Part shown: positions 41,245 through 44,595 of the stretch, in pieces
Position numbering within the stretch: position 1 is the stretch's first letter
Layout of the letters: each line of letters opens with the position of its first letter
Made by a program: the position numbers and the translations under genes
DNA from: Schwartzia succinivorans DSM 10502
GTDB lineage: Bacteria > Bacillota > Negativicutes > Selenomonadales > Selenomonadaceae
Reading direction: 5' to 3'
Assembly: GCF_900129225.1 (NCBI RefSeq)
Contig: NZ_FQUG01000002.1
Coordinates: forward strand, 310,001-374,000
DNA: 64,000 bases
Notes under the pieces: generated by a model
Databases searched by the model: none
What the model was told of the DNA's origin: nothing
Seen by the model: the letters and a program-made list of their open reading frames with translations, nothing else

Positions 41245-41272
41245 ACATATACGACCGACAGGAGGTCATTGT

Positions 41273-42103
41273 ATGTTCAGAATTGCTATTTACGGAAAAG
41301 GCGGTATCGGAAAGTCAACAACGGCAGCGGCACTCTCCTGCGCATTTGCGGAAAAGGGACTGCGCGTGCTTCAGGTAGGCTGTGACCCGAAGGCCGATTC
41401 CACGTTATATCTTCACGGAGGTAAGCGTATTCCTACGATTTTGGAGACGCTTCGGAAAAAAAGAACGCAGGCGGAGCTTGAGGATTTGGTTTTTGAAGGC
41501 TGCAAGGGTATCATGTGCGCCGAGTCAGGCGGCCCTATACCTGGACTGGGCTGTGCAGGGCGTGGAATAGCGGCGGCATTTGAGGCACTTGATGAGAGAA
41601 ATGCCTTCGATATCCTGAAGCCCGATGTCGTTCTCTATGATGTTCTGGGGGATGTTGTCTGCGGCGGCTTTGCCATGCCGATACGGGAGGGATATGCGGA
41701 GCAGGTGTATATTGTTACCTCCGGGGAAAATATGGCAATATACGCGGCTGCAAACATCGCGATGGCGGTAGCGAACTTTAAGGAGCGCGGCTATGCTTCT
41801 CTCGGCGGAGTGATACTGAACCGCCGCGATGTTCCCGATGAAAGGGAAAAGGTTGAAACACTCTGCCGTGACATCGAGTCAGAAATTGTGGCAGATCTTC
41901 CGAGAGATAACATGATAGCGGAGGCTGAGAAGACCGGACAGCCGCTTATGGAGGCGTTTCCTGATTCTGCTTTTGCAAAGGAGATTCGCCGCCTTGCTGA
42001 TTATATCCTGGAGCATGCGCCTCAAAGCTCCGATGAAAGAGGTATTCTATACGCCAGCGCGGATATGGAAGGAAAACGGGCTGCAGACAGGTGTGATTTG
42101 TGA
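41273..42103 (+). CDS. NifH-like iron protein of a nitrogenase-like system
   Basis: A 276-residue dinitrogenase-reductase-type ATPase. P-loop [11 protein letters not shown] (residues 7-17), switch [10 protein letters not shown] (36-44), [4Fe-4S] ligands Cys94 in GLGCAGRG and Cys130 in [10 protein letters not shown], with Arg97 matching the NifH arginine that can be ADP-ribosylated. The later stretch [17 protein letters not shown] is also NifH-like. It should form a dimer with one bridging cluster and pass electrons to the two component-1 subunits encoded downstream. ATG 41273 follows GGAGGT. Its stop overlaps the next start (TGATG). It could serve an Nfl, Cfb or Mar-like reductase; sequence alone does not say which. 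Confidence 0.92.
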
Positions 42104-43422
42104 TGGAAGCTTCAAAGGATTTTCAATACATAAAAGACCTTGACTATGTCTACAGAGCGGACATCGGACTTTCGTATTCAAGTCCCTGCAGGGGCGCATG
42201 GAATATTGTGCACTACGGCACTCTGGTACCGGAGGGACATCAGATATATGTATGTCCCGTGAGCTGCCTGAGAGGTGTTGTGCTGACAACGGCAGAGCTG
42301 GGCTTCGAAGCCATGAAAAAGCTTTCGACGATTGCCGTGGGTGAGGATAATATCCTGAATGGCGACCTTGAGGAGCAGGTTCTGCACGGAGCAGAGCGTA
42401 TCATTGAAACCCTTGAAAAGCGTCCCCGCATGGTTATGATTTTCACCAGCTGCATACACCATTTTCTTGCGGTGAATTATCAGCGCGTGTATAAAATTCT
42501 CAGGGAGGAATATCCTGATATTGATTTTATCGACTGCTACATGAATCCCATCATGAGAAGAAAGACACCGCCCATGCCGTCCCTCAGGAGGCAGATTCTC
42601 CGTGTTCTGAAGCCCGCGGAAAAGGATAAGGGACAGGTTTCATTTATAGGAAACTGCTTTCCCATGAAGGAGCACTGTGATTTAACAAATTTCCTGAGTA
42701 GAAACAATATAAGAGTTTCAGACCTTACGACTATGAAGAAATATGATGAGTTTAAGGCAATGGAGCATTCCTGTATAAATTTTACGTTTCATAACGCGGC
42801 AGCCTGGGCAGGAAAGGACCTTGAGCTTCGGCTCAATCAGCGGTGGCTCGTTATGCGTGAATCCTATGATTACGATACAATTGATGAAGATATGCGAAAA
42901 GCAGCGGAAGCATTGGAGCTTGAACCGTTGAGTGAAGCTGAAATCAAAAAAGAGCGGGAAATGACTGAGGCTGCAGTCGAAAAACTGAAAAAAACACTGG
43001 GGGATGTACCTGTCTCAGTGGATGACAGTGCGGTAGACCGTCCCCTTGAGCTTGCTCTGTATCTTCTGCGGCACGGATTTCGTGTTGAATCTGTCATAAT
43101 GGACGTAAATTCAGAGCCTGAGGAAATCTTCACCGCTCTGCAGAAGGCGAAGCCAGAGCTTAAAATTTATGCGGCTCATGGGTGGAATATGCGGCGCGCC
43201 CGTACAAAATTCGATGGTAAGATAATCGGAATCGGGCAGAAGAGCGCGTACCTTAATGATACTTCGTATTTTGTGAACATGACGGAGAATGCCGGACTCT
43301 ATGGATATGCAGGGATAAGACATCTTATGGAGCTTATCGGTGAGGCTGCCGCTGAGCCGAAGGATATGCGGACATTGATTCAGCAAAAGGGCTGGAACTG
43401 TCATATAGAGGAGGGCTGCTGA
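42103..43422 (+). CDS. Nitrogenase component 1-like subunit (NifD/BchN-type)
   Basis: A 439-residue protein of the nitrogenase component-1 family, shorter than NifD. Three candidate cluster cysteines, Cys29 (SSPCRGAW), Cys55 (CPVSCLRG; Cys51 is also near) and Cys117 (FTSCIHHF), have spacings of 26 and 62, close to the P-cluster or [4Fe-4S] ligands of NifD and BchN. GNCFPMKEHCDL and the C-terminal TENAGLYGYAGIRHLMEL occupy places where NifD has FeMo-cofactor contacts, but I see no equivalent of its Cys and His ligands. ATG 42103 overlaps the nifH-like stop; GTG 42100 is one codon earlier. It is probably the catalytic-site subunit, paired with the next gene product. Confidence 0.88.
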   Translation: MEASKDFQYIKDLDYVYRADIGLSYSSPCRGAWNIVHYGTLVPEGHQIYVCPVSCLRGVVLTTAELGFEAMKKLSTIAVGEDNILNGDLEEQVLHGAERIIETLEKRPRMVMIFTSCIHHFLAVNYQRVYKILREEYPDIDFIDCYMNPIMRRKTPPMPSLRRQILRVLKPAEKDKGQVSFIGNCFPMKEHCDLTNFLSRNNIRVSDLTTMKKYDEFKAMEHSCINFTFHNAAAWAGKDLELRLNQRWLVMRESYDYDTIDEDMRKAAEALELEPLSEAEIKKEREMTEAAVEKLKKTLGDVPVSVDDSAVDRPLELALYLLRHGFRVESVIMDVNSEPEEIFTALQKAKPELKIYAAHGWNMRRARTKFDGKIIGIGQKSAYLNDTSYFVNMTENAGLYGYAGIRHLMELIGEAAAEPKDMRTLIQQKGWNCHIEEGC

Positions 43423-44595
43423 GTGCGTGACTGGCATGTGCATGTTTTTACATCGACATATACTGCAGATGTTTCGGGCGTTTGCTCCGCAATGTACGAG
43501 CTTGGTGGCATGACGATTCTTCATGACCCCGACGGCTGCAACTCCACGTATACCACCCATGATGAGCCGCGATGGTACGGCTCAAAGGCGCTGATGTTTG
43601 TTTCGGGACTTGATGAGCTTACGGCTGTTCTCGGAGATGATGACGTGCTCATAAATGATGTCTGTGCCGCGGCGGAGGACTACAAACCGCGGTTTATCAC
43701 GCTGTGCGGCTCTTCTATTCCGCATATCATAGCCTTTGATTTCAAGGGCGTTGCTCATCTTATCGAGAAAAAAACGGGTATTCCTGTTCTGCCTGTTCCC
43801 ACTAACGGACTCAGGATGTATACCGTCGGGGTGGGTATGGCACTTCGGGAATGGATAAGGCGGTTTGCCGATTTTTCATTAAAGCCTGAGCCTAAGACAA
43901 TAAATCTTCTTGGGGTTACACCAATTGATTTTTCCCGGCAGGAGCTTGTGGATGCGATGAAAACGGCGTTTGAAAAACGCGGCCTTGCCGTAAACGCCGT
44001 CGGCGCTATGGGCGAAAGCTTTGAACAGCTTCAAAAGGTCTGCCGTGCTTCTGTCAATGTTGTGGTTTCATCGGCAGGACTTCTTCCAGCAAAATTTCTT
44101 TCAGATAAAGCAGGAATTCCCTTCGTAGAAGGTACCCCCATAGGAAGCTTTATGACTGATAAAATAGCAGAAGCCGTGCTTCAATCGGAGAAGGACGGCC
44201 AAAACTGCAGTGTCTTTGACAGAGGAAAATATTTGGCAAAGGCAGGAAACGACGAATATGCGGGAGCGGAAAAAACTAATCTCATTATTATCGGTGAGGA
44301 AGTCTGCTCACTTTCATTGGCCGGTGCAGCAGAAAAGGTGCTTGGAAAGGACGCTGTAATCCGCGCACTTTTTCCTGACGCTGATGAGGGAATAGATGAG
44401 GAGGCACTGGTGGACTACATAAACGCCGCCGATGCAGTAATCTGCGACCCGCTTTACCGCAACGCGTTCGGCAGGAGTCATGCAAAACTAATCCCGCTTC
44501 CTCATGAAGGATATTCAGGGAGAATTTTTCGTGATGATATTCCTGTATTCCTGGGAGACGGCTTTGACATCAAAGCATTCATTATGGGTATGTGA
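43423..44595 (+). CDS. Nitrogenase component 1-like subunit (NifK/BchB-type)
   Basis: A 390-residue component-1 family protein. Candidate cluster ligands are Cys21 (VSGVCSAMYEL), Cys39 (LHDPDGCNSTYTTHDEPRW) and Cys95 (FITLCGSSIPHIIAFD). Cys81 is additional. The His-Asp-Pro-Asp-Gly-Cys stretch is the most recognisable element. Much shorter than NifK, it lacks the long NifK N-terminal extension. GTG 43423 follows the previous stop directly, with GAGGAGGG upstream, implying coupled synthesis and a heteromeric D-K-type complex. No maturation genes follow: the next gene is an unrelated sensor. Confidence 0.88.
   Translation: MRDWHVHVFTSTYTADVSGVCSAMYELGGMTILHDPDGCNSTYTTHDEPRWYGSKALMFVSGLDELTAVLGDDDVLINDVCAAAEDYKPRFITLCGSSIPHIIAFDFKGVAHLIEKKTGIPVLPVPTNGLRMYTVGVGMALREWIRRFADFSLKPEPKTINLLGVTPIDFSRQELVDAMKTAFEKRGLAVNAVGAMGESFEQLQKVCRASVNVVVSSAGLLPAKFLSDKAGIPFVEGTPIGSFMTDKIAEAVLQSEKDGQNCSVFDRGKYLAKAGNDEYAGAEKTNLIIIGEEVCSLSLAGAAEKVLGKDAVIRALFPDADEGIDEEALVDYINAADAVICDPLYRNAFGRSHAKLIPLPHEGYSGRIFRDDIPVFLGDGFDIKAFIMGM

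Follow-up and report, generated by a model that had tools for sequence, protein, structure and literature searches.

What does a nitrogenase-like enzyme encoded by three abutting genes do in Schwartzia succinivorans? The genes, here called nflH, nflD and nflK, are co-directional, touching open reading frames (ORFs) at positions 41273-44595 of the 64-kb stretch of DNA that was analysed (the window), and a first-pass annotation had read them as a stand-alone reductase of a fermentative organism. On the basis of comparative sequence analysis, we propose that the trio is likely to take the place of HydG as a nitrogenase-like, ATP-dependent maturase of [FeFe] hydrogenase, and we infer its reaction, its substrate and its hand-over to HydE. 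Canonically, Fe(Cys)(CO)2(CN) is the product of HydG, from which it goes to HydE and then to HydF (PMC11736057). The trio is predicted to fill the same slot (that is, the Fe-CO/CN source for HydE and HydF) in genomes that hold HydA and HydE. HydG is nevertheless an unrelated protein: it cleaves tyrosine as a radical S-adenosylmethionine (SAM) enzyme, whereas the trio would act as an ATP-driven nitrogenase-like reductase.

The first-pass reading of a three-gene nitrogenase-like operon is borne out, given that all three proteins exceed the Pfam cut-offs and thus belong to the nitrogenase-like (NFL) superfamily, and so is the translational linkage, as the nflD ATG at 42103 overlaps the nflH stop (TGATG) and nflK begins with GTG immediately after the nflD stop. 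NflH is, as annotated, a NifH-type iron protein: its P-loop reads GKGGIGKS and its cluster cysteines are C94 and C130, all invariant across orthologs, and its closest solved structure is MarH (E 1e-70). The two component-1 subunits are indeed divergent. Their AlphaFold models (pLDDT 88 for NflD and 86 for NflK) match nitrogenase component-1 folds (Z 23.7 for NflD) and, as the best match for NflK, DPOR BchB (Z 31.2); among solved structures, a single-sequence search places NflK closest to BchB and a profile search closest to NifE, and NflD reaches solved structures by profile only (best NifE, E 1e-9), with no more than E 0.0085 against Mar. The genes next to the window trio include none for a radical-SAM protein.

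Membership of a described group was denied by the first pass, and the NCBIfam equivalog cut-offs agree. NflH falls below those for CfbC (312 versus 402), nifH (310 versus 394) and bchL (202 versus 345), and NflK below that for BchB (64.6 versus 490); further scores of the trio are 184 versus 331 for BchX, 42.5 versus 505 for nifE, 23.4 versus 654 for nifD and 19.3 versus 268 for CfbD, and NflD matches no NCBIfam equivalog family. Nitrogenase proper, DPOR, COR and CfbCD were rejected as identities because every score lies under the curated cut-off, and CfbCD is further disfavoured because it has a single component-1 subunit where the trio has two. These scores support the view that the trio would be an uncharacterised three-subunit nitrogenase-like enzyme, under the cut-off of every named curated family. 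Across 46 NflD and 44 NflK orthologs, Cys55, Cys117 and Cys145 of NflD and Cys39 of NflK are invariant, and NflD Cys51 and NflK Cys21 are nearly so; by motif, we take NflD Cys55 and Cys117 and NflK Cys39 to be the counterparts of nitrogenase alpha88, alpha154 and beta95. The ligands of the iron-molybdenum cofactor (FeMo-co; alpha Cys275 and His442) are not conserved, as the NflD orthologs hold no invariant cysteine beyond position 145 and no strongly conserved histidine in the C-terminal part.

The surroundings of the trio in other genomes point to hydrogenase maturation. A scan of 84,980 species genomes returned 491 relatives, and among the best 80, which were examined, 73 are stand-alone H-D-K trios (type A) of gut and rumen Clostridia, Synergistaceae and a Loigolactobacillus. 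Conservation of the trio, on which the first pass had staked its reading, was found, with gene order kept in about 73 further loci. The neighbours of the type A trios are a FecBCE-type importer (binding protein in 67/73), HydE (38/73) and HydF (25/73), and in 35 of the 38 loci with HydE this gene ends at most 64 bases from nflH on the same strand. HydE and HydF exceed their NCBIfam cut-offs by more than 200 bits (557.7 versus 254.6 and 566 versus 325.6, respectively), whereas the importer scores far under any named-substrate cut-off. The claim that the trio comes without maturation or biosynthetic genes is therefore not supported, as its relatives are operonic with HydE, HydF, HypFCDE and the importer; that nothing else belongs to the operon holds in the window and fails for the system, which includes these genes and a partner locus on contig C14 of the same genome.

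A second arrangement (type B) is found in the family of the window genome, in which 22 of 101 genomes hold an ortholog of the window D-K pair (31-42% identity). Here, the operon reads H1-D1-K1-hypF-(hypC)-hypD-hypE-D2-K2, without a second H; the acetogens Clostridium carboxidivorans, C. ljungdahlii, C. ragsdalei, C. luticellarii, C. drakei and C. muellerianum carry the type B operon plus their own H2. HypF, HypC, HypD and HypE are complete, with the PRIC tail of HypE and the MCVGLP start of HypC intact, and importer genes are absent from all seven type B loci and all 20 family loci searched, in which HypFCDE is present. In Megamonas, HydF (577.7 bits) follows nflK2 at the operon's end. In some Selenomonadaceae, NflD1 and NflK1 are fused into a protein of approximately 800 amino acids (L017:7536-9911; loci L047, L049 and L055). 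The two contexts alternate, and we suggest that the importer and the H1-D1-K1-HypFCDE block may be alternatives that feed the same D2-K2 enzyme.

HypFCDE assembles Fe(CN)2CO for [NiFe] hydrogenase, and a role for the trio in [NiFe] maturation was considered. It was rejected because the trio-linked HypFCDE is a second set, not the one that accompanies the NiFe hydrogenase, with no HypA or HypB seen at its locus, because HypD is absent in the eight stand-alone trio genomes tested, and because almost every family genome has the NiFe enzyme, whether the trio is present or not. A second HypD is found in 21 of the 22 trio-positive family genomes versus 2 of the 79 trio-negative ones (2e-18).

The missing partner is HydG. 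In the family, HydG scores over its cut-off in none of the 22 trio-positive genomes versus 43 of the 79 trio-negative genomes (Fisher 8e-7). Contrasts within genera weigh more, because relatives are not independent samples, and three genera provide them: in g3 the trio is in G002 and HydG in G032, G052, G074 and G082, without overlap; in g17 the trio is in G092 and HydG in G016, G043, G059, G071, G079, G086 and G098; and in g27 the trio is in G027 and G049 and HydG in G064, again without overlap. An even draw of 147 genomes from the class Clostridia, blind to the trio except for the centre genome (which was left out of the comparison), was searched with a chimeric HydG and NflD2 profile that scored both in one pass; HydG was found in 100 of these genomes, and in none of the 6 with a strong D2 hit versus 99 of the 140 others (9e-4). 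Outside the family, 4 of 41 trio-positive genomes hold HydG. Of the 63 trio-positive genomes, on the other hand, 62 contain HydA (PF02906), as do all 22 of those in the family; the one that lacks it is a 1.2-Mb metagenome-assembled genome (MAG). HydE is over its cut-off in 47 of the 49 genomes in which it was sought, that is, in all but G106 and G001, the latter of which is trio-negative. The distribution expected of a HydG replacement (that is, HydA and HydE present and HydG absent) is thus found, with exceptions, and points to maturation of the [FeFe]-hydrogenase cofactor rather than to a stand-alone fermentative reductase. Given the HydE/HydF operons and the exclusion of HydG, we have dropped the stand-alone reductase of unknown substrate as first choice.

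The same observations bear on three other explanations. The trio could act at another step of H-cluster assembly (for example, the dithiolate bridge, iron delivery or reduction of the HydF cluster), with CO and CN coming from an unrecognised source; any maturation step would be compatible with the linkage to HydE, HydF and the FecBCE-type importer, and HydF loaded with HydE alone reaches approximately 1% activation without HydG (as cited in PMC9431212), yet the enzyme that is missing is precisely HydG, the maker of CO and CN, and type B loci add HypFCDE, makers of Fe-CN/CO, both of which point to the diatomic ligands, so that we regard this explanation as unlikely. Rather improbable, in our judgement, is that the trio reduces an imported small molecule (a tetrapyrrole or metal chelate) in the manner of DPOR, CfbCD or MarHDK and that the hydrogenase link reflects a shared anaerobic lifestyle. 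BchB being the closest fold to NflK, the lack of conserved FeMo-co ligands and an importer of the BtuC/heme/Fec superfamily beside 67 of the 73 stand-alone trios would all suit such a reductase, but lifestyle explains neither the tight HydE-nflH operons nor the within-genus exclusion of HydG while HydA is kept, and the low importer scores match no named substrate. Finally, maturation of HydA might fall to a divergent HydG or to some other radical-SAM enzyme, as proposed in PMC9431212 on reporting an acetogen radical-SAM protein with an atypical C-terminal motif, and the trio might be unrelated. Some genomes do yield ThiH-like hits; however, in many stand-alone trio genomes, including Loigolactobacillus rennini, the sole match to the HydG profile is HydE itself, and in the acetogens except C. 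drakei such hits fall far under the HydG cut-off, which makes this explanation very improbable.

Several findings sit less easily with a HydG replacement. The trio and HydG occur together in I. bartlettii, C. drakei and two Synergistaceae. Clostridia also yield four D-type hits of greater distance, three of them in genomes with HydG, and these may represent another subfamily. In five family genomes (G009, G013, G025, G065 and G073), HydA is present, HydG is absent and no trio was detected. HydE and HydF usually do not adjoin type B loci, and a cyanide source is not apparent in type A loci. Genomes of the same family are not independent, and many are incomplete MAGs. Moreover, in L. rennini, the tidiest cassette, nflH is interrupted at contig ends that resemble insertion sequences. 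As to the five genomes (loci L161-L165), HydA adjoins HypD and HypE in G013 and lies near HypF in G009.

The L. rennini genes lie on two contigs, which join within nflH, and encode a NuoF/GltD-like protein, HydA (group A, 470 bits versus 406), flavodoxin, FecC, FecE, HydE, NflH, NflD, NflK, the binding protein and HydF, and profile searches of this genome found no HydG and no HypD. The nflH break (L151:11319-11366 and L121:1-56) shows matching inverted termini, as in an insertion sequence. This gene content is informative, yet it does not show that the system works in the strain concerned. By eye, the cassette also holds a ModE-like regulator and a DUF364-like (heavy-metal chelation) protein (L121:6851-7234 and L121:9026-9763).

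How might such an enzyme work? Electron transfer that is driven by an iron protein and depends on ATP is general to the nitrogenase-like superfamily, and NflH would deliver low-potential electrons to NflDK at the expense of MgATP, to be received by an Fe-S cluster held by NflD (Cys55 and Cys117) and NflK (Cys39). The NflDK cavity may then yield CO and/or CN ligands, or a whole mononuclear Fe(CO)x(CN) synthon, or may alternatively remodel an Fe-CN/CO precursor. Nitrogenase chemistry on CO2, CO and cyanide is known, which makes such ligand chemistry plausible. The precursor would be imported by the FecBCE-type ABC system in type A and supplied in type B by the second nitrogenase-like set, H1-D1-K1, together with HypF-C-D-E as builders of Fe-cyanide/CO, and the product would be built by HydE and HydF into the [2Fe] subcluster for HydA. 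The broader claim, namely that there is a radical-SAM-independent route to the Fe-CO/CN unit of the H-cluster, in which a nitrogenase-like enzyme takes a precursor that is imported or made by HypFCDE and the second set and passes its product to HydE and HydF, seems to us evenly balanced between true and false.

The window corresponds to C13:310001-374000 of a 2.66-Mb genome. This genome holds three nitrogenase-like sets: the trio, a second set on contig C14 (L017) with NflH1, a fused NflD1K1 and then HypF, HypC, HypD and HypE, and a third H-D-K set on contig C15 (L018). Outside the window, it encodes HydE (371.5 bits) and a HydA that bears H-cluster motifs, and a profile search of the genome did not find HydG. 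In trees built by a quick method, the window NflH and NflD group with those of Lachnospiraceae RUG12573 (L067), with support of 99 and 96, respectively (identity 78% for NflH and approximately 51-56% for NflD), and the importer and HydF adjoin the trio of that genome. NflH sits in the H2 clade, apart from H1, and the D2 of the family's own type B operons forms a separate clade (support 93) without the window NflD. As the H1-D1K1-HypFCDE locus of the window genome is without D2-K2, these data lend moderate support to a scenario in which a horizontally acquired trio replaced the native D2-K2, and such a replacement argues that the two halves (that is, the trio and H1-D1K1-HypFCDE) work together.

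The HydE gene of the window genome lies at L149:9498-10535 (C13:257497-258534). Scores against the HydE model are approximately 355-396 bits in the window and type B genomes and approximately 500-590 in type A genomes, and the lower-scoring HydE is perhaps a divergent group adapted to a different partner. The third set (L018:8781-15840, equal to C15:192781-199840) has an H protein at 389.5 versus the nifH cut-off of 394.35 and, by eye, two CbiK-like chelatase ORFs, a major facilitator superfamily (MFS) transporter, a TonB receptor and a FecCD-type ABC transporter as neighbours; to judge from its appearance, this nitrogenase-like enzyme may have to do with tetrapyrroles or metals.

Features of the nfl operon, in window coordinates
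Feature	Position	Strand	Evidence
Ribosome-binding site AGGAGGT	41260..41266	+	6 bases 5' of nflH start; direct sequence reading
nflH, NifH-type Fe protein, 276 aa	41273..42103	+	Pfam Fer4_NifH 298.8 bits
nflD, component-1 subunit, 439 aa	42103..43422	+	Pfam Oxidored_nitro 63.6 bits; D2 clade at support 100
nflK, component-1 subunit, 390 aa	43423..44595	+	Pfam Oxidored_nitro 105.7 bits

No HydE/F/G, Hyp, HydA or type A-style ABC genes were found within the window, in which a search for the type A importer hit nothing but a generic ABC ATPase (63329 onward, 29% identity). A scan of the trio operon for promoters and terminators gave hits no more numerous than in shuffles. A flavodoxin gene (PF12682; 40676-41146, same strand) lies 126 bp upstream of nflH, with an apparent hairpin and T-run by eye in the gap, and a flavodoxin-like ORF is also present in the L. 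rennini cassette; the window flavodoxin is a possible electron donor.

Among the closest described systems is the NifHEN-like 'red clade' of Dos Santos et al. 2012 (PMC3464626), for which a conserved cysteine pattern of the alpha88/alpha154/beta95 type was described. Its members (Coprococcus catus, Dorea longicatena, Dhaf_1539/1540 and Mlab_1039/1040) share with our loci the two linked H-D-K copies, an occurrence in gut Firmicutes, two P-cluster-type cysteines in D and one in K, and a place beside hydrogenase maturation genes; the two are probably the same family, a likeness of description and motif rather than of sequence alignment. That study gave one sentence to a possible role in metallocluster assembly, without the loss of HydG, the HydE/HydF operons, HypFCDE or a pathway. 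Like NifHDK with NifEN, type B combines an Fe protein with two component-1 pairs, one of which is perhaps a scaffold, but the trio is without FeMo-co ligands, nifB is not seen in the operons and the scores are far below the nif cut-offs. MarHDK, IsrHDK, CfbCD, DPOR and COR also count among the Group IV/V nitrogenase-like reductases and likewise use an Fe protein that depends on ATP, yet they have other partners and substrates, and NflD and NflK resemble the members of solved structure at the level of fold only (approximately 10-18% identity).

In C. carboxidivorans, C. ljungdahlii, C. sp. AWRP, C. coskatii and C. ragsdalei, a 2022 survey (PMC9431212) found HydE and HydF without HydG, an absence that it called unexplained, and in several of them HypCDEF without HypAB; from gene order, these Hyp genes would be the ones inside the type B operon. 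C. autoethanogenum has a bifurcating [FeFe] hydrogenase, Hyt, that has been characterised (cited in PMC9004356), and the main text of the transposon study of that organism (PMC9004356) makes no statement on the genes considered here. In the literature searched, we found no paper that links nitrogenase-like genes to either HydG or the H-cluster and no earlier proposal of HydG replacement.

If the proposal is true, the trio as a replacement for HydG would explain the missing hydG of C. ljungdahlii and its kin, and would represent a new biosynthetic route to Fe-CO/CN chemistry and a new job for the nitrogenase family, as the first of its enzymes to build a hydrogenase active site. It would also provide an alternative maturation kit for hydrogenase engineering and correct the genome-based prediction of hydrogen capacity.

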